Shown: in pieces, positions 562-48,093 of the stretch
Layout: the number at the start of each line of letters is the position of its first letter
How positions within the stretch are numbered: the stretch's first letter is position 1
Source: a virus
Virus record (IMG/VR): IMGVR_UViG_3300034374_007207
Coordinates: 1-51,205 of that record
Direction: 5' to 3' (one strand)
Length of the DNA stretch: 51,205 bases
Translations under genes and position numbers: made by a program
The notes under the pieces: generated by a model
Told to the model about the DNA's origin: nothing
What the model saw: only the letters and a program-made list of their open reading frames with translations
The model's database searches: none

Positions 562-852
562 ATGAATATTCAACAAAAATTTGATGAATTATGCTTTCAC
601 ATTGAATCCACAGAACTTAGCTGTGATGTAATCCTTGATTACAAAGCAGTAATTAAATCATGGAATCTTCCTTACGGGGAAGAAATCCTAGAAAAGTACT
701 GTAGGGAATTGGCAGATGATGTCAATGACAGATACTGGGGCATCAACAGAAAAAACTCTTTCTTTGACAGAGACGAGTTCATCAAACAAAAAAACCTTCT
801 TGCTTTAAGCAAGAGGGGAATAATAGCTGACCTTGTAGGGGATGGCTATTAA
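562..852 (+). CDS. Unknown 96-residue early protein
   Basis: The frame is open from 400, but the start at 562 is preferred because it has the TTATG leader form and leaves the palindrome at 517-546 outside the gene; the sequence upstream reads like non-coding DNA. The product begins MNIQQKFDELCFHIES and is acidic and probably helical, without membrane segments or recognisable motifs. It is the first plus-strand gene after the divergent region, and a hairpin (858-878) and a hammerhead ribozyme (879-929) follow it directly. I do not recognise a family. Confidence 0.6.
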   Translation: MNIQQKFDELCFHIESTELSCDVILDYKAVIKSWNLPYGEEILEKYCRELADDVNDRYWGINRKNSFFDRDEFIKQKNLLALSKRGIIADLVGDGY

Positions 853-857
853 TACTT

Positions 858-878
858 AGGGAGGTGTAATGCCTCCCT
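858..878 (+). other. Stable hairpin just upstream of the ribozyme
   Basis: AGGGAGG (858-864) pairs with CCTCCCT (872-878) around the loop TGTAATG. There is no T-tract, so this is not a classical terminator. It lies between the stop codon at 852 and the first ribozyme base; ribozyme cleavage after 884 would leave this hairpin near the new 3' end of the upstream mRNA. Confidence 0.65.
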
Positions 879-929
879 GCTGTAAGGTGGTGTGTACCAT
901 CTCTGATGATTCCTAAAGGATGAAACAGC
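879..929 (+). ncRNA. Type III hammerhead ribozyme (predicted)
   Basis: All conserved parts are visible in the correct order: stem III 5' strand GCTG (879-882), TA with the cleavage site after A884 (GUA triplet), stem I AGGTGGT (885-891)/ACCATCT (896-902) with 7 pairs (one G-U) and loop GTGT, core CTGATGA (903-909), stem II TTCC (910-913)/GGAT (918-921) with loop TAAA, core GAAA (922-925), and stem III 3' strand CAGC (926-929). Stem III is the open stem, making it type III. The weak point is stem II: three Watson-Crick pairs and a U-U where G-C is usual. It would cut the transcript between the genes at 562 and 1241. Confidence 0.8.
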
Positions 930-1240
930 TCTCCGAGGATCAAGATGTAAGTGCTTGTAGGAGGAAAGCCTAACCTGACGGCTTGGTAGTCAGTTTTAAT
1001 CACCAGTAAAATATAATAATATGTATACTGGTAGGATAATTATTGGCTTGATCCTTTGCCTACTGTTAGACAGACCTAACAGAAAAAAAGGGTCATATCA
1101 CCTCACCGTGATGATTATTATCCACGGTGTGGTCTGTTTTGTCCTAGATTATCTACTTTTTATGTGATGATCTAGGGAATAGCCTATACTATCAAGGCTT
1201 GGTGTTGATAGGAATTATTTAATCCATTAAATTATTAATT
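930..1240 (+). other. Structured non-coding spacer with chained hairpins
   Basis: No gene is seen in these 311 bases. The plus strand holds a chain of hairpins: CTGAC/GTCAG (975-979/989-993, followed by TTTT), ACCAGT/ACTGGT at about 1002-1032, CTGTTAG/CTAACAG (1063-1069/1076-1082), CACCGTG/CACGGTG at about 1104-1129, CCTAGAT/ATCTAGG at about 1143-1175, and CTATCAA/TTGATAG (1189-1195/1205-1211). The loop ACAGAC at 1070-1075 is complementary to GTCTGT at 1132-1137, so a pseudoknot or alternative fold is possible. It probably forms one structured leader RNA together with the ribozyme. Confidence 0.5.
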
Positions 1241-1516
1241 ATGGATTTTATAAAATTGAATCTATCCTACCTGACTTCAGTGAATGATGGGGAATATTAT
1301 GTCCTCAACACTAACTGTAGTTGGTGTATGGATGGAGAAGATCTTGTTAAAGGGTTTGCACAAAAAGGTTTGAAACCTTTAGTGCTAAGGCTACCTAGCC
1401 CTTTAACAAAGGAAAACCTCATGGCTATTCAAGTTGATGGCTTTGAGGTTGAAGTTATTAAGGTAATGAGATGCCGTGATGGTATTGGTTACCTTGTTCA
1501 CTTCAAGATAAGGTAG
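1241..1516 (+). CDS. Unknown 91-residue protein
   Basis: The start follows the A/T-rich leader ATTAATTATGG. The product begins MDFIKLNLSYLTSVNDGEYY and looks like a small mixed alpha/beta protein with no membrane segment. A tRNA-synthetase- or enzyme-like motif was looked for and not found. It is bounded by hairpins on both sides: CTATCAA/TTGATAG 29 bases before the start and the three-way element from 1521, four bases after the stop. Function unknown. Confidence 0.6.
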   Translation: MDFIKLNLSYLTSVNDGEYYVLNTNCSWCMDGEDLVKGFAQKGLKPLVLRLPSPLTKENLMAIQVDGFEVEVIKVMRCRDGIGYLVHFKIR

Positions 1517-3482: not shown

Positions 3483-4649
3483 ATGAAAAATCTAAAAGTA
3501 TTATTTATTGACACAGACATAGATGTCACTGGTTTTAAGTATGCATGTAAACTTGCTAACATTAAACCAGAGTATATAGACACATATGATGTTTCTGAGT
3601 ATAAGTTTGAAAACATAGACTGTATAGTTTATGGATACAGACTATACAGTGATAAGCAACGTATGGAAATGTTGCCTGCTTATATACCTAGAATAATATG
3701 GACAACAACTCCTCAATATTTTCAGGATTCTAGTGACCAAATTATTGACAGACTTGCAGAGTTAGAAACAATTAGCACAATACCTGAACATATGCAAATA
3801 CATCCCTCATATGTGTTAAAGCTAATTAACTTGACAAACGCAATTAGAAGTGTTTGTGAAGAAAACACAAACTTCATTGGCAAGTACTTCAAAGATGTAG
3901 TAGAGTACATTGATAAACTTAACAACTCCAACAAAAATCATATTACTAAAGTGAATGATAATCGTGTTATCTTTCACAAATATGATGAGACTGAAAGAGC
4001 AATCTTTCAACAGAATGTTGATGCATACAAAAAATTAGGCACTCCAATTTATCCTGATTACTGGATGAATTTTTATGTCACTGTCACATATTATCCTGAC
4101 AATGATAAGATTATTGTTAAGGAAGTCTATCAGGAACTTTTAGATAGACATAAGAGAAACCCTAAATATGCTGAGGAATGTGAGGCTGGTATCATATCAG
4201 ATCCTTATATAAAAGATAGGGTCTATTACAAATCCACCTGTAGAAAGTTGGTAATTACAAAGCGAGGCATTCTTAAATGCTTTGGTAACATCTTCAAAAG
4301 AATGCCATACTATTCATATGGCAATGATGTTTTAGGTTACAATGTACCTGGGCACTTTCACCGTCCTGGTAATGTATTCAACAGGATACTAAAGGATATT
4401 AACTTATCCTACAGGCCTGATATGGCATGGACGTATATGCCTGAGATGTATTTTGCATTAGTTAACCAAGAGGATTCTCTCAAGGTTGCTAAGATGTTGC
4501 ACAAAACATTCAGACCTGATCTTGATTACAATGAGGATTCAATCAATGAATACCTTGAAGAAAAGAGAAAACAAAGGGATGCTGAACTTCAAGCGCAGTA
4601 TGAACGTGAGGTTCATCTGTGGAAGGTACAAGATGACCTACCGTTTTAA
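3483..4649 (+). CDS. Unknown 388-residue protein
   Basis: The start has the leader ATAAATTATG. The N-terminus (MKNLKVLFIDTDIDVTGF) reads like the first strand and loop of a Rossmann- or receiver-like fold, with hydrophobic strands near residues 5-9 and 44-52. The middle is rich in Tyr, Asn and Asp; the last 35 residues are a charged helix. No Walker, nuclease or protease motif was seen. It is the longest gene of the left block and heads the group 3483-6023. Confidence 0.6.
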   Translation: MKNLKVLFIDTDIDVTGFKYACKLANIKPEYIDTYDVSEYKFENIDCIVYGYRLYSDKQRMEMLPAYIPRIIWTTTPQYFQDSSDQIIDRLAELETISTIPEHMQIHPSYVLKLINLTNAIRSVCEENTNFIGKYFKDVVEYIDKLNNSNKNHITKVNDNRVIFHKYDETERAIFQQNVDAYKKLGTPIYPDYWMNFYVTVTYYPDNDKIIVKEVYQELLDRHKRNPKYAEECEAGIISDPYIKDRVYYKSTCRKLVITKRGILKCFGNIFKRMPYYSYGNDVLGYNVPGHFHRPGNVFNRILKDINLSYRPDMAWTYMPEMYFALVNQEDSLKVAKMLHKTFRPDLDYNEDSINEYLEEKRKQRDAELQAQYEREVHLWKVQDDLPF

Positions 4650-6023: not shown

Positions 6024-6235
6024 ATATTTTTATGTCCAACGCATGCTGTTATGGTGTGCAACGGACATAGTGAACTCTAATATCACGCACCATGCATATT
6101 GTGACTTTCTTTTTTTGACCTTACTCTTAGGTCGTGCACAGTTACATCTGTGTGTATTTATTTCTAACCAAAACACCTGACAATGCTAAGGGTGTCTCTT
6201 TATAGAGTTTTAGTCTGACGGCAAGCATAATTACT
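6024..6235 (+). other. Structured non-coding spacer
   Basis: Between two genes, this 212-base stretch holds several hairpins: TATGTCC/GGACATA (about 6031-6068), GACCT/AGGTC (about 6117-6133), CACAG/CTGTG (about 6137-6152), ACACC/GGTGT (6073+100 to 6195, stem arms 6173-6177 and 6191-6195) and CTCT-TTAT-AGAG (6196-6207). The last ends 28 bases before the ATG at 6236. A frame crossing it (5968-6180) has no leader and is not called. Confidence 0.4.
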
Positions 6236-7012
6236 ATGAATAAAGTAGATGGAATTTTCATGGGCGGTATTGTATTTGTTAACAACGTAGAGTTTGCTGA
6301 TAGAACTATGCGTATTTTTGTTGACTTTAAGAAACCGCTTTATGAAAAAAGTGAATCTGTAAGCTTGAACAGAGATGGCTCTACTATGGTAGAGTATTTC
6401 AACACACGTGTAGATAACTCAAAAGATTTTGAGGGCTGCATTACTGTCAATTATGGCAGTGAGCTTTTTGATAAACTACTAAAATCCATGCAGGAGAACC
6501 CCTATAAATCCAAAAGAGGTTTTCCTATGGCAGGTTGGAAGTTTATCAATGAAACAGATACCTTTAAAAAGTACAACTACAAATCTCGCTCTAACTATTT
6601 GAAAGAATATTTTAGAGTGAAACCTTCAGGTCACAGTTCTGAAGAGCAGGGTAAAATTTTGCAAAGCTTTTGCAAGAAATTTCCTGAGTACATGTCTGAG
6701 TTTTGGGAGTCTTTTGATAAGGCTATTGAAGATGGCAACTTTACACCTATTGAGGAAAAATACAAGCGTTTTGTTGAACGCATGGAAAATCCAAGAGGTA
6801 AAAAGCCTTCAAGCTCTGTACCTGATTTTAACCCTTCTATGGATTTAGGTTCTAACTTAGGTACACCTGCTGTCTTATCAAAAACAGAAATCCAAAATGC
6901 AACCCTAAACAAGTTGCGCAATTATTGTGATGAACGTGGTATAAGCCACAAGTCAAGTGACACAAGAACGTCACTAAGGAAAGCCTTACGCAAGCACTAT
7001 AACTATGCGTAA
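6236..7012 (+). CDS. Unknown 258-residue protein with SAP-like C-terminus
   Basis: The start has the leader TAATTACTATG. The first 200 residues show no recognised motif. The last 40 contain LNKLRNYCDERGISH and then a helix ending in LRKALRKHY, which resembles the helix-turn-helix of SAP or HeH DNA-binding motifs found at the ends of many phage proteins. A proline/serine-rich linker (about 185-205) separates the two parts. A DNA-associated role is likely but unproven. It closes the left block: a strong terminator follows 18 bases after the stop. Confidence 0.6.
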   Translation: MNKVDGIFMGGIVFVNNVEFADRTMRIFVDFKKPLYEKSESVSLNRDGSTMVEYFNTRVDNSKDFEGCITVNYGSELFDKLLKSMQENPYKSKRGFPMAGWKFINETDTFKKYNYKSRSNYLKEYFRVKPSGHSSEEQGKILQSFCKKFPEYMSEFWESFDKAIEDGNFTPIEEKYKRFVERMENPRGKKPSSSVPDFNPSMDLGSNLGTPAVLSKTEIQNATLNKLRNYCDERGISHKSSDTRTSLRKALRKHYNYA

Positions 7013-22811: not shown

Positions 22812-23139
22812 TGTGTTTCGTGTAATTGAAATGCTTCAAGGATCTAATGAAGATTATACACTAGGATTAGAAATAATAAAACATTTTAATTCATATACTA
22901 ACCTTTGTATAGCATCATACTTTATTGGTGACAAGAAAAAAAGAATATTAGATGAATGCCATGAAAGCTTTACATCTAATGATACTAACCTAAAATCTTT
23001 ATTTAGGTATATAGAAACTACAGAAGATAAAGATCTCTTCATTATGATACTTGAAAAGAGAATATACATAGCTTCTGATTACAGTGAGATTAGACAAAGA
23101 ATGAAAAACATTATCAAAATTTTGAATGTCAATGCATGA
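22786..23139 (+). CDS. Unknown 117-residue helical protein
   Basis: It overlaps the resolvase gene (26 bases) and the metallopeptidase/VWA gene (14 bases). The product (MDQQTTPDDVFRVIEMLQGS) is helical with no catalytic motif. Similar small helical proteins often precede the VWA gene in such clusters; here it is only positional. Confidence 0.5.
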   Translation: MDQQTTPDDVFRVIEMLQGSNEDYTLGLEIIKHFNSYTNLCIASYFIGDKKKRILDECHESFTSNDTNLKSLFRYIETTEDKDLFIMILEKRIYIASDYSEIRQRMKNIIKILNVNA

Positions 23140-24283
23140 TGTACTAAGCAAAATTTCCAAGACAATCTTATTCAAAGAACCTTTCTATGGTTTGTTTCTT
23201 ATAGGATTGAAAAAGAATTTTACTGATGATCTTCCTACTGCTGCTGTTGGTAGGAATGGTATCAATACTTCTTTATATGTAAACCCTGACTTCTTTAAAT
23301 CACTAGATGATGATAAGAAATATGGACTAATAAAACATGAGCTATTGCATATTGCTTTTGGGCATATGACAATGCGTGATATATTTCAAGATAAAAAGTT
23401 ATTTAACATAGCTGCTGACTTAGAAATAAATCAATATATAGATGAATATCAGTTACCTGAAGGTGGTATTACAATGGATTCATTTCCTGAATTGTCACTA
23501 CCATACAGAGCTGGTACAAAAGAATACTACAAGCTTCTCAAACAAGCACAAGATCAAGGGAAGTCTGAGTCTCTACAAAATCTTTTAGATTCACAAGATG
23601 GCAACTCACCATATGATCATAACACTTGGGAAGAGTTTGATGAATTGCCAGAGTCTACACAAAGGCTTATAGAAAAACAGATTGATCATCAGATTAATAC
23701 TGTAGCAGAAACTCTTGAGAAATCTTCAGGTAATATTCCTGGAGAAATTAAATCAATACTTAAAAGAATAAGACATGTAGAACCACCAAAGTTTGATTGG
23801 CGTGGATATCTTAGACGCTTTGTTGGCAACTCAAATATTGTGTATACTAAAAAGACTAGGAAAAAAATCAACAAAAGATTCCCAGGTAATCCAGCAATTA
23901 AAGTTAAGACAAGAAGTCACATTCTTGTAGGTATAGATACATCTGCATCTGTAAATAATAATGAACTTAAAGAGTTTATGGCAGAGCTATACCATATATC
24001 TAAAACAGGTAATCAAATTACTATTGCTCAGTGTGATACTGTATTAAATAGTGTTGAAAAATTTAATCCTAAAAAAGATTTGAATATAAAAGGAAGAGGT
24101 GGTACAGATTTTCAACCTGTAATTGATCACTATAATGAGAAGGGTTATTATACAACACTTATATATTTTACTGACGGAGAAGCATCTTCACCTAACAATT
24201 GCCCAAAAAATACTTTGTGGGTACACAGTAGCATATCTCAGATAAATGAGAGTCTTCCAGGTAGATGTATAAAAATTAATTAA
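23126..24283 (+). CDS. Metallopeptidase/VWA protein (DUF2201-like)
   Basis: The 385-residue product has HELLHIAFGH (71-80), a zinc-metallopeptidase signature, followed by Glu in ADLEIN (100), then a C-terminal von Willebrand A domain with the MIDAS motif DTSAS (271-275), GRGGTD (323-328) and FTDGEA (348-353). This is the arrangement of the DUF2201 family, whose members pair with MoxR-type AAA+ ATPases. Such an ATPase lies two genes on. The pair may remodel or cleave a host or virion protein; the substrate is unknown. Confidence 0.85.
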   Translation: MSMHDVLSKISKTILFKEPFYGLFLIGLKKNFTDDLPTAAVGRNGINTSLYVNPDFFKSLDDDKKYGLIKHELLHIAFGHMTMRDIFQDKKLFNIAADLEINQYIDEYQLPEGGITMDSFPELSLPYRAGTKEYYKLLKQAQDQGKSESLQNLLDSQDGNSPYDHNTWEEFDELPESTQRLIEKQIDHQINTVAETLEKSSGNIPGEIKSILKRIRHVEPPKFDWRGYLRRFVGNSNIVYTKKTRKKINKRFPGNPAIKVKTRSHILVGIDTSASVNNNELKEFMAELYHISKTGNQITIAQCDTVLNSVEKFNPKKDLNIKGRGGTDFQPVIDHYNEKGYYTTLIYFTDGEASSPNNCPKNTLWVHSSISQINESLPGRCIKIN

Positions 24284-28387: not shown

Positions 28388-30379
28388 ATGAACCACTGGA
28401 TAATGGACTATGAAACTTTATCCAATTGTTTCGTAGCAGTATTTCAACATTATAAATCCAATGACAAAAAGATATTTGTTGTTAATGATCTTGAAGATAA
28501 CTTTGATTCGCTAGTTGCTTTCCTGGAAAGTAATATCAAAAATAAAGAGTGGCATATATCATACAACGGTCTCAACTTTGACGCTCAAATAACACACTAT
28601 ATACTTGATAGCAGTTACAAATGGCTTACATATTCTGGCAGTGATATTGCTAAGGATATATATGCATACGCACAATCTTGTATAAATAAAAGTAGAGCCG
28701 GAGATTTTCAAGAGTATCCTGAATGGAGAATGAAAATTCAACAAATAGATGTATTCAAGCTAAATCATTGGGATAACAAAGCAAAAAGAAGTTCTTTAAA
28801 ATGGATACAGTTCAGTATGGATTGGGATAACTTGTTAGACATGCCCATAGAACATACTGTGCATATAGACAAATATGAGCAGATAAATACTATTATAGAT
28901 TACTGTATAAATGATGTTGAATCTACAGCAGCAATTTACAATGGCAGTATATCACAAATCAAACTTAGAAAATCATTAAGCAAAAAGTATAAAGTAAATT
29001 TATTTTCTGCATCTGAACCTAGAATCAGTAAAGAGATATTCATGTATTACATGAGGCCCAAAATGAATATCACTAAATATGATTTTAAAAAGCTTAGAAC
29101 AGAAAGAATTAAAATTAACTGCGGTAATATCATATTACCATATATAAAATTTAAAACACAAGAATTTAATAATCTCCTATCAATTATAAAAGATATGGAG
29201 TTAGATGCTCTTAATCTTAAGGGTCAGTTTAAGTTCTGTGTTAATTACAAAAATGTAGATACAACCTTTGGTTTAGGTGGTGTGCATGGTGCAAATAAAT
29301 CAGGCATATATGAAAGTAATGAAGACTATATTATTATGTCTTCAGATGTAACAAGCTTTTATCCTAATCTTGTTATTAGAAACAAATGGAGTGCAGCTCA
29401 TTTCCCCCAAGAATTATTCTGTCCACAGTATGAATGGTTCTTTGATGAAAGAGTAAAAATTCCTAAGTCTAATCCAATGAATTATGTGTTGAAGATTATA
29501 CTTAATAGTACTTTTGGATTGAGTAATGATGCAACAAGTTTCTTTTATGATCCAGAGTTATGTATGCGTATCACAATAAACGGACAGCTTACATTAATGA
29601 TGTTGTATGAAAGAATTATGGAGGAGATACCTGGTGCTATTTCTATTATGCAAAATACAGACGGTATAGAAATTAAAATACCAAAGGAGTATAAAGAAGC
29701 ATACTTAGATATTTGCAAAGATTGGGAAGATGTAACTAAACTCAAACTAGAACATACAACATATAGCAAAATCATATTGGCTGATGTCAATAGTTACATA
29801 GCAATTGATAATCCTGTAAAGGTTGATATAACTAAATGGAGAAGTATCAAGGATAAAAACCCTCATTACTTATTTAGTATTAAGGGTTCTGATTTCTTAT
29901 ATTCTGCTGTAAAGTTAAAAGGTAGGTTTAATTTTCATAACTTAGAACTACACAAAAATAAATCTAAACTTGTAGTGGCTAAAGGTATATATCAGTTTTT
30001 TATAAACAACATATTGCCTGAAGACTATGTTAAAACAAACACCAACATACTTGATTACTGCATTGCACAAAAGTCAAGAGGTGATTGGAAACAAATGAAA
30101 AGGGTATCTATTAACGGTGTGATTACAGATATAGGTTTGCAAAAAATTAATAGATATTATATATCTAACAATGGATGTAAACTTGTAAAAGTAAATACAT
30201 TTGATGGTAGAGAAATACAATTAGAATCTGGTAAATGGAAACAAACTGTATTCAATAAATTGTGTATAAAAAATAAGTTTGAAGATTATAATGTCAATAT
30301 AAAATACTATATTGATGCTATCAAAAATGAGATAGATAATATTATAAACATTTCAAAAAAACAACTAACAATATTCTAA
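28388..30379 (+). CDS. Family B DNA polymerase
   Basis: The 663-residue product has a 3'-5' exonuclease domain with all three motifs: DYE (7-9), N60 with FD (64-65), and Y172...D176. The polymerase motifs are motif A SDVTSFYP (D320, Y325), motif B KIILNSTFG (K369 to G377) and motif C QNTDG (N423, D425), where the usual first Asp is replaced by Asn. Motifs A and B are only about 50 residues apart, far less than is typical, so the fingers region is reduced. The primase and helicase genes in this window suggest RNA-primed replication. Confidence 0.93.
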   Translation: MNHWIMDYETLSNCFVAVFQHYKSNDKKIFVVNDLEDNFDSLVAFLESNIKNKEWHISYNGLNFDAQITHYILDSSYKWLTYSGSDIAKDIYAYAQSCINKSRAGDFQEYPEWRMKIQQIDVFKLNHWDNKAKRSSLKWIQFSMDWDNLLDMPIEHTVHIDKYEQINTIIDYCINDVESTAAIYNGSISQIKLRKSLSKKYKVNLFSASEPRISKEIFMYYMRPKMNITKYDFKKLRTERIKINCGNIILPYIKFKTQEFNNLLSIIKDMELDALNLKGQFKFCVNYKNVDTTFGLGGVHGANKSGIYESNEDYIIMSSDVTSFYPNLVIRNKWSAAHFPQELFCPQYEWFFDERVKIPKSNPMNYVLKIILNSTFGLSNDATSFFYDPELCMRITINGQLTLMMLYERIMEEIPGAISIMQNTDGIEIKIPKEYKEAYLDICKDWEDVTKLKLEHTTYSKIILADVNSYIAIDNPVKVDITKWRSIKDKNPHYLFSIKGSDFLYSAVKLKGRFNFHNLELHKNKSKLVVAKGIYQFFINNILPEDYVKTNTNILDYCIAQKSRGDWKQMKRVSINGVITDIGLQKINRYYISNNGCKLVKVNTFDGREIQLESGKWKQTVFNKLCIKNKFEDYNVNIKYYIDAIKNEIDNIINISKKQLTIF

Positions 30380-34068: not shown

Positions 34069-34093
34069 AGGGTACATCATATTGGTGTACCCT
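34069..34093. terminator. Bidirectional terminator between convergent blocks
   Basis: AGGGTACA (34069-34076) pairs perfectly with TGTACCCT (34086-34093) around TCATATTGG. It lies between the stop of the DUF932-like gene (34061) and overlaps the stop of the minus-strand gene (34092), so it probably ends both transcripts. T-runs are weak on either side. Confidence 0.75.
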
Positions 34094-34403
34094 ACCATTT
34101 AACTCTATTAGCCCAGTATGCTGCTGACATCTTTCCTTTATTAATGTTCTTAGCATGCCTTGCTTTAAATGAGGCTCTTTTCTTTTTCATTTTAGTAGAC
34201 TCTCCTGATTTAGGTTTACCTGCAGTCTTAGCTCCCTGCTCTCCAAACCTAATAGTCTTAATCTTATTTCCTTCTTTTGCCACAACAATGTGTGACTTCT
34301 TAGGATGATTAGGTGTACGCTTAGGCTTGTTGTATCCTGATACACCTGCTCTTGCTAACCTGGGGTCTTTCTTCCTACCTGTTGTTTTCTTTTTAGGTGG
34401 CAT
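34092..34403 (-). CDS. Lysine-rich small virion-type protein, 103 residues
   Basis: It starts MPPKKKTTGRKKDPRLARAG and continues with VSGYNKPKRTPNHPKKS, a middle beta segment (IKTIRFGEQGAKT) and a helix ending in AAYWANRVKW. It is extremely basic. I recall similar proteins in aquatic and crAss-like phages and in giant viruses, of unknown role. The ending AAYWANRVKW looks conserved. A DNA-binding or internal virion protein is likely. Confidence 0.65.
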   Translation of the reverse strand: MPPKKKTTGRKKDPRLARAGVSGYNKPKRTPNHPKKSHIVVAKEGNKIKTIRFGEQGAKTAGKPKSGESTKMKKKRASFKARHAKNINKGKMSAAYWANRVKW

Positions 34404-34405
34404 AA

Positions 34406-34690
34406 CTATTTCTTTTTAGTTTTTCTTTTAGCAGTTTTCTTTGCACCTGTTCTATTAGTGCCTTTATGCAAGCCATGACTAGCATGCTGCTTGCCCTTCT
34501 TTGTTGCTTCTCTTTTCTTCTTGTTAGCCGCTGCTAACTTCTTCCTGCCAGATGCAGTGCTCTTAAGCTTCTGTATAGTCTTGGTAGGAGCGTAGACCTC
34601 TCCAGTCTCTGAAGATTTCTTTCCTGAAGCAGTTCTCCATTTTTGTTTAGTCCATCTATCAAGACTCTTTTGTTGTTTCTTCTTTGCCAT
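34406..34690 (-). CDS. DUF6321-like basic protein, 94 residues
   Basis: It contains WTKQKWRTASGKKSSETGEV, which resembles the small-protein family I remember as DUF6321 (W-T-K-W-GK-S-ETGE-Y pattern), and ends in an Arg/Lys-rich tail (GAKKTAKRKTKKK). It is found in phages and giant viruses; function unknown. Two bases separate it from each neighbour. The basic tail should bind DNA. Confidence 0.6.
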   Translation of the reverse strand: MAKKKQQKSLDRWTKQKWRTASGKKSSETGEVYAPTKTIQKLKSTASGRKKLAAANKKKREATKKGKQHASHGLHKGTNRTGAKKTAKRKTKKK

Positions 34691-42312: not shown

Positions 42313-45300
42313 TTATTTGATATAAAAGTTCTGTAAGTTATCAAAGCTTATCCACTTATTGATTGAATACCAAATAGGCAATGCATCACCCCAGTTTTTA
42401 GTAAGCTTAAGTTGACCTTTTCTATTGCCTCTTTGATAAACATACTCAGAATTTGCCATAAACTCTTCTTCTGAAGATAATGCATACATAAGAGGTGTAG
42501 AAATTGAATATGATAAAGCTTCACCTAATTCACCTAATGTTCTTGTTGATGCAAAAGGAGAGTCTACCATTTTCAGAAGTTGTTTGTAGGAATCCGCACT
42601 AAATACAATCAAAGGTGACATCATTGTAAAATCTTGGACCAATCTATCTGATTGCCATCTTGCCCAGTTTGCTGATCTTTTAAATGTTTTACCTGAATTA
42701 TCACTGTATTCTTTTAATGCAAGATCTTTATATTCTTCATCTTCATCATCATCATCTAATAACATATTAAGCAAACCAGAAACTGCCATAATAGAAAATA
42801 TAAGTCCTGTTTCAGCAATTGTTCTCCAGGCTCCCATGATTCTATTGTTATTTTTCTTCATTAATTCATCCCACTGCAATTCTGTATATTTGCTCTTGTC
42901 AAGATTTTGATACTCCATATATTCCTTAATCATCTTGTCTTTGTCTAAACTTACTTTGTTTAGATTTTTCATACCAAACCATATAAGTTTAATAGCAGAC
43001 TTATACCTACCTTCCATCCAACCTAAGTTTTCATCATAGTATTCTCTTTGAAATCTTGCATTAACAGCAGGCACTACCCATTTATGAAATTGTGCAAGCA
43101 ATTTACCCCAAGAATACTGTTGTAAAACCATTCTATCTTCTTCAGCATAATTACCATGCACTTGTTTGTTTACCTCTCTAATATATGTTCTAATGTTAAT
43201 ACGCATTACATCATCTAAATAAACTTTGCTCTGATCTGTAGCTTCATTAAGTTTGAATTGCCCTGGTGCTTTTAATATTATTAAATCTTCATAACCTTCT
43301 TTAAGCTTTAAACCATTTGTTAGTTTGTTAGAAGCTTTTGAAGGTTCAAAAACATAAGCATCATACAATGATATTTCTGGCATTTTACCATCTTTATCTT
43401 GTACAATAATATCTTTCATAATAGCCATACCAATCTTTGTTTGGTTGACATATTCACCCCAATCCTGCAGTTTAAATGATGCATTAATAGCCCAGCTTTT
43501 CCAATCTTTTTTGCTTTCAAAATCTGAACCCATCTCACGTATATCTGATGCTTTGTCCATCATGCCATAAAATGATACCATAGCTTCAAACTTACTCATA
43601 GCATATTTTGCATCATACGCACTTTTGGATTTTGCCATATCGGAATCTAAAACATCTTCATAATTAACATCTGGTTTGAAGAAAGATGAAGTTCTTTCTA
43701 TAAAACTTTCAATACCCTGTCTTTTAAATTCATTTTCTGCCCATGTATATGACTTCCTACTAAAAAACCTTTGCCCAAAAGCTTCATTGTAATTACTCAG
43801 CTTACCAAACAAGTAGTTATTATAAGAGCCAAATGGATTCAAACTTACATATGAAAATGATGTAAATTTAATAATTCCATTTACTAACTTATCAAAAGCA
43901 TTTTTAGGAATCTTATCTTTTTGATAGATATTCATGTTCATAAAAGCCTGCGCTCTTTTATACACATTAGAATCTTTACCTGATATAGTTGATTTCTCTT
44001 GAAATTCTTTCCCTTTAAATAAGCCGTATTTAAAGTTACCGGCAGGTCTAAACTGTCTATTTTCTATAACGGATAAAAACGTATGGTAGATATCCTCAGC
44101 TTCACTCATAGTTTCATAATTCTCAGCCATTAGTGAAAACTGCAATAAAGTAGATGTTAGATCTCTACTAACTTCATTAGATGCAGGCCTAGCATCTATA
44201 ACTTCTCTTTGACCTTTTAATACAGCTCTTTGTTTTTTTAATTCCTCAAGAGTAATATCACCATTTTTAAATTTCTCATTTAGTTGCTGTAGCTCATTAT
44301 CTATCTCTTTTAGTTTTTCATCATCTCTAAGTCTACCTGTAAATCTGATAGGAACAGCATCAATAACTTCACCAAACTCATTTGTTGTAACGGCACGTAG
44401 ATAAGATGTGTTTGTAAAAAACTCTACAATAGAGCGTAGAGTATCTTTGAGCTTATACCATAATGTTTGAACACCTAAAGGTTTACTAGAATATGCCTTT
44501 GCAAATTTGTTTCTAACAACAGGTATTCTACCATACATACTTGCTCTTTCACCTGGAGGTAATTTATCAAGTAGTAAGTTTAATGTTTCTTTATAGTATA
44601 AATAATATTCTTTTTGAACTTCACCCAACTTTGTAGTTGGATTCATAATATCTCTATACTTCTCATTTGTAAGAAGCTTACCGTTTGAATCTACAGTCTT
44701 TAGTTTTTTATATTCATTTTTTACTACCCACTTTGTATTCATTTTTGTTTTTGCAGTAGGCGCACCTTTTTCATACCATACAGTCATATATGATATCTTA
44801 TTCATGTACTTATTTCTGAAGTTTTCATACTCTCTTTGTGATATACCTATCTTTTTATCCCAAACTTCTCCTCCTCTATTTTTGAAATATGCTACTTTAT
44901 CTCTTGCGTTTTTATATTCTTCTGTATACTCAAAATTTAATCCTGAAGTATAAGTGCCGTTTTCTATTTTTTCTCCCGCTAAAAACTCTGAGTATTCTCT
45001 CTTGGCATTTGCAAGGTCAATATTATATTGTATTTGCTCTGGTGTAAAGTTTCTTGGATCATCTATTTCTATATACTTTTTAATATCTCCTGTTTCACTG
45101 TCATAAAGTTTAGATTTTAATTCTCTAACCTTATTGATAAATTCAACAGATTCTTGCTCTACAAGTGTACCATCTTCATTTATCATAAAGTCATAAAACT
45201 TTTCAGGATCCTTCTCTTCTGAATAGAACTCTAGTTTCTGACCCATAGCAACTATGCCTTCAGCTCTAAGGTTAACAGTTTCTGCAAGCTTTCTTTTTCT

Positions 45301-48093
45301 TTGTTTAAACATTTTTTTCATAACCCGGAGAAAAATATCTTCAGATGTATCCATGTCTCCTGTCCAGTATTCTAAGCCACTAATATCTAACCCCTCTCTC
45401 ATCATGCTATCTATTTCTTCAAGAGTGAGATCCTGGCTTGTTGTACCATATATTTTATCCCTAACAAAGTCAAACATGGCTTGGTCTGTAAGACTTAACC
45501 TTACGCTATCATTTTCTGTAAGTTCATTTAGCTTACCTTGAAGTCTTAGTATAAGCTTGGATATTCTTGGGTTAACAAAATCACCATCCTTAACAGTTTT
45601 GAGATTATAAAACTGCATTGCAAACTCTTTGGCATTTTTTACATATTTCAAAAAATTGCTATCATCAAAGTTTGAAGGATTCTGAAGGTAATCTATAAAG
45701 TTATCAGACTGTTTAATTGCGTCTAGCAATACCTCAACATATGATTGATTAATTTGCTGTTGATTAGTAGAACCTAAAGCCAAAGATATCATACCTAAAG
45801 TCTTATCTATCTTTTTAATATTGTCTAATGGTTTACCCTTAACAAATATTTGGTTTGTCAACTGCTGTATTGCCTCTCTCCGCTTCAGTAAAATATTTTC
45901 ATAAGCCTCAAGATTTTTCTTGATAGCATTTGTTTCAGTATTTAATTCCTCCTCAGTAAACTCTTGCGTGTCTGGCCTAGATGGATTCTCTAAATACTCT
46001 TGTGTAGGTTCAACATATTTCAAATCTTCAACTAAATAAGAAGCAGCAATTTCTGATATTTTTAAAGGAAACTTAGACAACTCAAAATCTTGTATTTCTC
46101 CTTCAATTTTTTGTGCGTTCTTACCTTCAAACTCAAATTCATTTAGATACTTCTGATCTACACCCTTACCTTCAGCGGCTATCCTAACATTGATAGTAAA
46201 ATATGGATCATGAGGAGTAATTTCATAACCCATATTTTCTAATATAGATGAATACAAAGCTAACTGAAGAGCATGTTTCTGTTGTTTGCTAAATGTAGAA
46301 ATTTCATTACCTAGTTTTTTGGAAGACTCATTTAATAATGTTCCATCAATAGGCCACATCTTAGTATAGCTAGGTGAATTTATACTATGTACACTTGTTT
46401 TTAAGTCAATAACCTTTAGCTGACCTTCAGGAGTTATCAAAAGCAAGTCAATAGCACCGGCAATATTCTTATAGTTTTCAGTGTCTTGAGCTTTGTTGTG
46501 TATAATTACCTGTGGTATAAGAATATCTCCAGCATTTTTAACACCAGATAAGAATATATTGAAGTTTTCATATATCTTTTTGATTTCTTCTTCTTGCTTT
46601 TCAACACTTTCTGAAAGTAAATTTAAAGGCGTTTGCTTGTTGCTGTTTAGTTTTTGCAATGTTTGCTCTATGCTATTACCTAATATTAAATTTTCCAATA
46701 CAGTATCAAATATATTACCCATATACTTGTTAAAGTCAAATTCATTAGAAGAAAATTTCTTATTAAAAGTGCTAGTACTACTTACATATTCTTCACTTTT
46801 GTTAAATACATTAGTATATGTATGCGTTTCTTCATCTAAGACAACCAAAGTTCTTTCATCAAAAGGTCCTTTTTCTGTTATTGAAGCAGCAAACTGATCA
46901 TATTCTTCATCTACCTCCATAACATTTTTAAAAAGGCTTAAAACCACCCTTTTTTGAGCCTCAGAACCAACTTCTAATGCATTGTCTACAACCTTTTGTT
47001 TATCTTCAGACAAGGCATATTTTACTTTCATTTGTTTTGGTATATCAAACTGCAATAACAAGTCTGGAGTATTAAGTTTTTTTGCTATTTCTGTTAATGT
47101 TGTGTTGGCATCAATAGTTGATATGGGCAAAGTAATACCCCTTATAGATGATGCCATATTTGATATAGCATTTTTAAAGAACTGTAAAAACTTTTTTATA
47201 GCATTTAAAAACTTACCAGTTGGCTTGTTTTCATATTCCTTTTTAAAATGCTTTGAGAGTGCCTGTGTAACAAGCTCTTCTTCTATATCTTTTTCATATA
47301 ATCTATCTATCTTTTTAAAAAGTTCAGGGTATGATTCCTTTGCTTCCTCAAATAGATTATCAAACAACTCCTTGTTTTCTATCTTTAATGCTGCTACTAG
47401 CGGGTGCAAAACTTCCTCTACTGCTATCTCATCAGTAACTCTGGAATCTATAAGTACAACTTGATTATTTACAGGATTAAAGAAAGATTTGACTTGATTA
47501 AAATCTACATTTTCTTTTAACTCATCAGGTATAGCATCATAAATAATTTTTGCATCAGATAAAGATACAAACTGATAGTCTAATCCCGGCACTTTAGGCA
47601 ATATGTAGTCAAGTATTTTTCTTGTCTTATCAAGCTTTGCTTTTTTCCTATCTAATACTGGATTGTTATCACTTATGATTTTGTTGTTAAATGTGACTTC
47701 TGCACTAGGATTGTTTGTATCTACAGTTATAAAATCTGCAGGTACATCATTAAAGACAAGTATATTTTTTATTATGCTAGATTTATTCTGTAATGCTTGT
47801 GAAGAGTTTAAATAATCTGATTTTGTTAACTTAATAAATACTTGATCATTAACTTGTTCAACTAAATCCATGCTTATCAGATTGTCTACAATTGTTTTTT
47901 GTAAACTTTCTTTTTTAGTTGCGGCTTCTTTTTTCATAGATCTTCTCATTTCCTTAACCTGATTATAGGTAGGAATAGCATCACTATTATTCTGGCTTTG
48001 CCACATCATTGCTAAAGCATATGCTTGATTTTCACTAGGAAATGATAAAGCAAGATCTTTAAACTCTTTTAAATTTTTATTTATACAAGCCAT
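42313..48093 (-). CDS. Giant 1926-residue multidomain virion cargo/ejection protein
   Basis: Visible parts in order: a helical N-terminus; a degenerate metallopeptidase-like segment EEVLHPLVAAL (about 226-236), where the first His of HExxH is Glu, followed by EEELVTQALSKHF (about 271-283); a PD-(D/E)XK nuclease domain (about 430-650) with GAIDLLLI, KVIDLKTS and QQKHALQLALYSSIL; long helical stretches; a membrane helix (about 1762-1779) followed by an acidic cluster; and a basic C-terminus. It lies one base from the RNA polymerase gene, so the two are made and probably packaged together. Giant proteins at this place in crAss-like phages are virion cargo. The enzymatic activity is inferred. Confidence 0.8.
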   Translation of the reverse strand: MACINKNLKEFKDLALSFPSENQAYALAMMWQSQNNSDAIPTYNQVKEMRRSMKKEAATKKESLQKTIVDNLISMDLVEQVNDQVFIKLTKSDYLNSSQALQNKSSIIKNILVFNDVPADFITVDTNNPSAEVTFNNKIISDNNPVLDRKKAKLDKTRKILDYILPKVPGLDYQFVSLSDAKIIYDAIPDELKENVDFNQVKSFFNPVNNQVVLIDSRVTDEIAVEEVLHPLVAALKIENKELFDNLFEEAKESYPELFKKIDRLYEKDIEEELVTQALSKHFKKEYENKPTGKFLNAIKKFLQFFKNAISNMASSIRGITLPISTIDANTTLTEIAKKLNTPDLLLQFDIPKQMKVKYALSEDKQKVVDNALEVGSEAQKRVVLSLFKNVMEVDEEYDQFAASITEKGPFDERTLVVLDEETHTYTNVFNKSEEYVSSTSTFNKKFSSNEFDFNKYMGNIFDTVLENLILGNSIEQTLQKLNSNKQTPLNLLSESVEKQEEEIKKIYENFNIFLSGVKNAGDILIPQVIIHNKAQDTENYKNIAGAIDLLLITPEGQLKVIDLKTSVHSINSPSYTKMWPIDGTLLNESSKKLGNEISTFSKQQKHALQLALYSSILENMGYEITPHDPYFTINVRIAAEGKGVDQKYLNEFEFEGKNAQKIEGEIQDFELSKFPLKISEIAASYLVEDLKYVEPTQEYLENPSRPDTQEFTEEELNTETNAIKKNLEAYENILLKRREAIQQLTNQIFVKGKPLDNIKKIDKTLGMISLALGSTNQQQINQSYVEVLLDAIKQSDNFIDYLQNPSNFDDSNFLKYVKNAKEFAMQFYNLKTVKDGDFVNPRISKLILRLQGKLNELTENDSVRLSLTDQAMFDFVRDKIYGTTSQDLTLEEIDSMMREGLDISGLEYWTGDMDTSEDIFLRVMKKMFKQRKRKLAETVNLRAEGIVAMGQKLEFYSEEKDPEKFYDFMINEDGTLVEQESVEFINKVRELKSKLYDSETGDIKKYIEIDDPRNFTPEQIQYNIDLANAKREYSEFLAGEKIENGTYTSGLNFEYTEEYKNARDKVAYFKNRGGEVWDKKIGISQREYENFRNKYMNKISYMTVWYEKGAPTAKTKMNTKWVVKNEYKKLKTVDSNGKLLTNEKYRDIMNPTTKLGEVQKEYYLYYKETLNLLLDKLPPGERASMYGRIPVVRNKFAKAYSSKPLGVQTLWYKLKDTLRSIVEFFTNTSYLRAVTTNEFGEVIDAVPIRFTGRLRDDEKLKEIDNELQQLNEKFKNGDITLEELKKQRAVLKGQREVIDARPASNEVSRDLTSTLLQFSLMAENYETMSEAEDIYHTFLSVIENRQFRPAGNFKYGLFKGKEFQEKSTISGKDSNVYKRAQAFMNMNIYQKDKIPKNAFDKLVNGIIKFTSFSYVSLNPFGSYNNYLFGKLSNYNEAFGQRFFSRKSYTWAENEFKRQGIESFIERTSSFFKPDVNYEDVLDSDMAKSKSAYDAKYAMSKFEAMVSFYGMMDKASDIREMGSDFESKKDWKSWAINASFKLQDWGEYVNQTKIGMAIMKDIIVQDKDGKMPEISLYDAYVFEPSKASNKLTNGLKLKEGYEDLIILKAPGQFKLNEATDQSKVYLDDVMRINIRTYIREVNKQVHGNYAEEDRMVLQQYSWGKLLAQFHKWVVPAVNARFQREYYDENLGWMEGRYKSAIKLIWFGMKNLNKVSLDKDKMIKEYMEYQNLDKSKYTELQWDELMKKNNNRIMGAWRTIAETGLIFSIMAVSGLLNMLLDDDDEDEEYKDLALKEYSDNSGKTFKRSANWARWQSDRLVQDFTMMSPLIVFSADSYKQLLKMVDSPFASTRTLGELGEALSYSISTPLMYALSSEEEFMANSEYVYQRGNRKGQLKLTKNWGDALPIWYSINKWISFDNLQNFYIK

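Follow-up and report, generated by a model that had tools for sequence, protein, structure and literature searches.

Does the short segment between two early genes near the left end of a viral record encode a self-cleaving RNA, and if it does, what would such an RNA do there? The DNA in question is IMG/VR record IMGVR_UViG_3300034374_007207, all 51,205 nucleotides of which were analysed and are called the window here. A first-pass annotation, made from the letters alone, had placed a complete type III hammerhead ribozyme on the plus strand at 879-929, and each of its elements is confirmed base for base by the sequence and by the MFE fold. Stem III pairs GCUG (879-882) with CAGC (926-929) and is extended by U883-A925 (879-883/925-929), in the sequence as in the model alignment. 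The cleavage triplet GUA stands at 882-884, and its position, set by homology to the hammerhead class, gives a predicted cut between A884 and A885. Stem I has 7 bp, AGGUGGU (885-891) with ACCAUCU (896-902), and is capped by GUGU (892-895; UGUGUA with the closing pair). CUGAUGA stands at 903-909, stem II is formed by 3 bp between UCC (911-913) and GGA (918-920) around a UAAA loop (914-917), U910 faces U921 as a mismatch at positions 10.1-11.1, and GAAA completes the core at 922-925. When 879-929 is folded alone, the MFE structure is exactly the hammerhead.

The features by which type III hammerheads are recognised are nearly all of the usual kind. The invariant core CUGANGA, then GAAA, is found at 903-909 and 922-925; an NUH triplet with its U16.1-A15.1 pair is found in GUA 882-884 and U883-A925; and stems I and II are closed by loops while stem III is open, both in the MFE fold and in the model alignment. 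At 10.1-11.1, U910-U921 takes the place of the base pair usual in type III, which is mostly G-C. This pair is usual but not strictly defining, and it is not treated as defining here, since U-U is reported in natural hammerheads (PMC3088659), and in the phage set described below it is the most frequent state. The loops GUGU and UAAA are loop types of the phage U-U class, and no Watson-Crick pseudoknot between them is apparent by eye. Scanning the window for types I, II and III with structure taken into account gives one type III site. A weak type II-like match on the minus strand, with stems of 4, 3 and 3 bp, was dismissed as chance, and a tRNA reading of the region was dropped because ARAGORN finds none.

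How often such a motif arises by chance can be estimated from shuffled DNA. Across 27,222 dinucleotide shuffles there were 41 loose type III matches (0.0015 per window); with a stem I of at least 7 bp there were 3 (1.1e-4 per window), and the U-U mismatch occurred in none of these. The Rfam search that had been suggested as a check gives a result that taken at face value goes against the annotation. Hammerhead_3 (RF00008) is the top of 4,227 families at the site, with E 5.8e-4 in 501 b, but its 28.2 bits lie below the gathering cut-off of 48.5 bits, which is a curation threshold and not a biological definition, and at the gathering threshold Rfam has no match in the window. Yet the same model gives no match up to E 0.1 on the Pseudomonas phage PaP3 and two related phages (L220-L222), and so misses the PaP3 ribozyme discussed below. 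At gathering it finds none in 14 viral contigs selected for hammerheads, and an RF00008 search of genomes found nothing. For this reason the null result is not taken as absence, nor is the RF00008 cut-off taken to define the class. A covariance model (R1), trained on 47 U·U members of the phage class with the window left out, scores 879-929 at 69.4 bits (E 1.2e-15), and the next-best place in the window at 12.2 bits. All 15 model pairs are standard at the site and every core letter is intact. Elsewhere R1 gives 71.2 bits for PaP3, 69.6 bits for a Sphingobacterium genome and 72.3 bits for the viral contig L007, which belongs to its training set.

The closest comparison is with PaP3 (Bruynoghevirus). 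The catalytic core CUGAUGAUUCCUAAAGGAUGAAAC at 903-926, which includes the U910-U921 mismatch and the UAAA loop, is identical over all 24 nt to that of PaP3 and of many other Pseudomonas phages (blastn; 72 records match, some with one base difference). The likeness extends to the type III layout, the stems of 7, 3 and 4 bp, the U10.1-U11.1 mismatch and loop 1 GUGU, and in PaP3 too the ribozyme heads a block of small genes. The two differ in the sequences of stems I and III, and the phages that carry them are unrelated; stem III of PaP3 is followed within a few nt by the start of an ORF, and the short piece read upstream of its ribozyme shows no adjoining strong hairpin. A scan of the PaP3 genome finds one hammerhead only, in the short piece preceding orf71, where the genome record ends. 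Perreault et al. (2011; PMC3088659) include PaP3 in their list of active hammerheads whose cores vary, with reported cleavage in vitro, and we infer that the RNA assayed is the one found here, since the genome scan gives no other. The same text describes the U10.1-U11.1 mismatch as surprising but as supporting more cleavage than any other mispair, and stem II as often having only two base pairs; it also records that some consensus hammerheads assayed in that study were inactive. The hammerhead of the window is very probably active.

The features shared with PaP3 recur in a wider set. Viral contigs were scanned for the pattern CTGTA..CTGATGA..GAAACAG and the matches then put to a structure test; in contigs L001-L120 this left 108 type III matches and 51 of type I, near-duplicates included. 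The 85 distinct type III members have U·U (56), G-C (28) or G-U (one) at 10.1-11.1, in a scan that let in only standard pairs or U·U at this position; with no requirement there, the counts are U·U 57, G-C 20 and other 8 (n=85). The commonest build has a stem I of 7 bp with a 4-nt loop that is often GUGU (the commonest loop, in 30 of the 56 distinct U-U members), and a stem II of 3 bp with an AAAA, GAAA or UAAA loop. The element in the window carries every feature of this build. The first-pass annotation had named the weak stem II as its main doubt, and this doubt is removed, as U-U followed by 3 bp is the majority form of the phage class. Pair counts in the alignment of these members (A1) are 100% paired by construction, since members were chosen for pairing, and are not independent evidence. 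A second scan therefore matters more here: it fixed only CTGATGAT, AAA and TGAAA, and did not select for stems I and III. It gave 77 new matches, 46 with a fully paired stem II and 31 in which this stem is missing. A stem I of at least 5 bp together with a stem III of at least 4 bp was present in 32 of the 46, in 0 of the 31, and in 9 of 3,850 controls with shuffled upstream sequence; about ten more among the 46 combine a 7-bp stem I with a stem III of 2-3 bp. Because stems I and III were unselected, their co-occurrence points to real structural conservation. Taken with the R1 score and the core identity to PaP3, this makes 879-929 almost certainly a genuine type III hammerhead of a widespread phage class, as the first reading of the letters had proposed.

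The phage that carries it is uncultured and, on polymerase homology, crAss-like. Its DNA polymerase (28388..30379, plus strand) belongs to phrog_1252 (E 1.9e-130), and the best named tblastn match is Cellulophaga phage phi14:2 (Crassvirales, Steigviridae). A 1926-aa protein at 42313..48093 on the minus strand is a homologue of Gp49, the putative RNA polymerase subunit of crAss001 (tblastn, E 2e-20, about 24% identity), which places the phage near Crassvirales. The record also encodes helicases, a Sak4-like protein, a primase and an exonuclease. The record is 51 kb, linear and probably a fragment, and its placing rests on the polymerase genes. The annotation had described a crAss-like early region next to the virion RNA polymerase system; the crAss-like part stands, but the gene for the putative RNA polymerase subunit lies at the other end of the linear record. 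Related contigs share the gene content of the stretch between about 10.5 and 34 kb. They do not share that of the first 10.5 kb, and early ORFs up to about this point remain unmatched in relatives even at E 0.05. The compensatory changes that had been hoped for in related phages could accordingly not be read at the locus itself. ORFs 562-849, 1241-1513, 1607-2281, 3483-4646 and 6236-7009 gave no relatives in which orthologous loci might be compared, the related phages are without the element, and covariation can be read only in the wider ribozyme family. R1 has no match in 50 related records, and none in cr112_1, cr128_1, crAss001, phi14:2 and two related gut phages. Given these absences, the element was apparently gained in this lineage, perhaps by transfer. 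At 34092-34690 two small genes, the first of them phrog_7595, are 83-88% identical to those of the viral contig L018, which itself has a type III hammerhead, and this suggests gene exchange or shared hosts among such phages. A homologue of the first of these genes is also present in L107, L050 and L119. Separately, a gene at 23126-24283 for a DUF2201 metallopeptidase/VWA protein has relatives in 28 of the 120 contigs with the hammerhead pattern; it is perhaps merely common in phages. The contig might be a chimera, as its early 3 kb are GC-richer (0.37-0.38, vs about 0.30 elsewhere) and without relatives. However, the composition shifts gradually, and the left end opens with a divergent minus-strand reading frame, as expected for two opposed gene blocks.

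What the ribozyme might do is best approached through its surroundings. Upstream lies an early ORF of 96 aa (562..852, plus strand), an orphan with no PHROGs family, no Pfam family and no relative in viral contigs, whose stop is 26 nt before the ribozyme. Between the two a stable hairpin (858..878), GGGAGGU with GCCUCCC plus A858-U878 (7-8 bp; fold of 859-929), abuts the ribozyme. Downstream there is a possible small ORF of 48 aa (1021..1167, plus strand), a candidate starting about 92 nt after the ribozyme; its product would be hydrophobic with two TM-like stretches (MYTGRIIIGLILCLLLDRP...VCFVLDYLLFM), and it is missed at a 60-aa cut-off. The next larger early ORF (1241..1516, plus strand, 91 aa) is 312 nt downstream and also an orphan, with no PHROGs family and no relative among viral contigs. 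With orphans on both sides, the locus has no ortholog in which selection would show. Both flanking ORFs run in the same sense as the ribozyme. The layout can be compared with 140 distinct type III ribozymes from two contig sets, 101 of them U·U. The 45 nt upstream of these fold with a mean energy of -11.7 kcal/mol in set 1 and -13.5 kcal/mol in set 2; the downstream means are -3.8 and -2.9, and random 45-mers from the contigs of set 1 average -5.4. Of the 140, 96% have an ORF start no more than 60 nt downstream (control 35%), and 76% have an ORF stop no more than 100 nt upstream (control 39%). The class median is an ORF start 24 nt away; the nearest one in the window, at about 92 nt, lies beyond that of 96% of the class.

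The reading we prefer, and hold with considerable confidence, is a self-cleaving type III hammerhead whose most likely role is the division of an early polycistronic transcript into separately stable messages. It would be transcribed with the early genes, fold once about base 929 has been made, and cut after A884 co-transcriptionally. The upstream message would then end with the stable hairpin, a 6-nt tail and a 2',3'-cyclic phosphate, and the downstream message would begin with a 5'-OH and stem I of the ribozyme. Such 5'-OH ends resist 5'-end-dependent decay, and the upstream hairpin offers a reason why the upstream product could be stable. What the analysis shows is the structure, its place in the class and the order of hairpin, ribozyme and gene in that class; cleavage at this site, its timing and its effect on message stability are inferred. 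Of the earlier suggestion that the upstream message gains a hairpin-protected 3' end, the hairpin itself is present and upstream hairpins are enriched at the 140 ribozymes, with which protection of the end would agree. Comparable systems are known elsewhere. For the clustered prophage hammerheads, such as the ardA array of A. tumefaciens, which are also intergenic ribozymes in phage operons, it has been proposed that they cut long transcripts into gene-length messages (Perreault et al., PMC3088659); arrays of this type have several ribozymes per locus, whereas one was found in the window. In the haloviruses HF1/HF2, HHphage is likewise a hammerhead in the leader of early genes of a lytic DNA virus, and the 5' end of a transcript lies no more than three nt from its cleavage position, but its core is a variant with insertions and the host is archaeal (same source). 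The viroid and satellite-RNA hammerheads of RF00008 share the permutation, the core and the cleavage triplet with the element described here; the model differs in having G-C at 10.1-11.1 and a larger loop 2, and its members act in circular RNA replication and not in phage messages.

Three other readings were weighed against division of the transcript. The ribozyme could instead make or trim a noncoding RNA, so that the cut at 884 frees a hairpin-rich RNA (885-1240) with a defined 5' end and not two messages. The stretch 853-1240 is indeed much more structured than shuffles (z -5.6), and the distance to the next sizeable ORF is far above the class median. On the other hand, the 48-aa ORF may be the downstream gene, 930-1240 matches no Rfam family beyond noise, no DNA relative was found, and other early intergenic gaps (1516-1606, 2284-2366, 6024-6235) also look hairpin-rich by eye; we consider this reading unlikely. 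Less likely still is a regulated ribozyme, in which pairing with about 935-941 stops cleavage, either after the downstream RNA has been transcribed or in response to some condition. In transcripts longer than about 940 a competing fold pairs core bases with this segment and displaces stem III, and the mean pair probability of stem III falls from 0.94 in 859-929 to 0.13 in 855-960, that is, when 930-960 are added. These values come from a nearest-neighbour folding program, which ignores tertiary contacts and with them the tertiary stabilisation of hammerheads, and the competitor fold is without comparative support. Hammerheads can also fold and cut before a competitor is transcribed. The competing fold also weighs against the preferred reading, in that activity may hinge on timing during transcription or on tertiary contacts.

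That the element is an inactive hammerhead-like relic, or a chance motif, is the least probable of the three, and we give it very little weight. It would agree with the score below the Rfam gathering level and with the absence of the element from the relatives of this phage. It agrees poorly with 15 of 15 intact model pairs and an intact core, with the identity of that core to the one of PaP3, and with a chance rate of about 1e-4 per window for a stem I of at least 7 bp, class-specific features aside.

The element is a ribozyme of a known kind in a new place. No report linking hammerheads to crAss-like phages or to virion RNA polymerase turned up in a literature search of incomplete coverage. 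Of greater interest are the wider class and the fact that Rfam fails to see it. A common phage class, with a ribozyme reported active among its members, escapes the Rfam type III model, so self-cleaving RNAs are under-counted in phage genomes that were annotated with Rfam. What phage hammerheads are for becomes a testable question, given how consistently gene stop, hairpin, ribozyme and gene start follow one another. A broader proposal, to which we give about even chances, is that this class (mostly U-U or G-C at 10.1-11.1, a UGUGUA-type loop and an NAAA loop, unseen by the Rfam model) forms, with its hairpin, a recurrent and horizontally moving phage module, which installs processed, hairpin-capped message ends between genes and has entered Crassvirales.

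It is also worth recording that hammerheads can be packed very densely in viral contigs: L096 and L090 hold arrays of 12 and 9 ribozymes (type I and III) at a single locus. A U-U type III hammerhead is found as well in Sphingobacterium griseoflavum (L307, NZ_BNAF01000006) on the minus strand, from 2568 of the reverse complement. Its stem III directly abuts a tRNA-Leu-like sequence (GGAGAGATGGCGGAATTGG...CAGGTTCGAATCCTGCTCTCTCC), which ARAGORN does not call.
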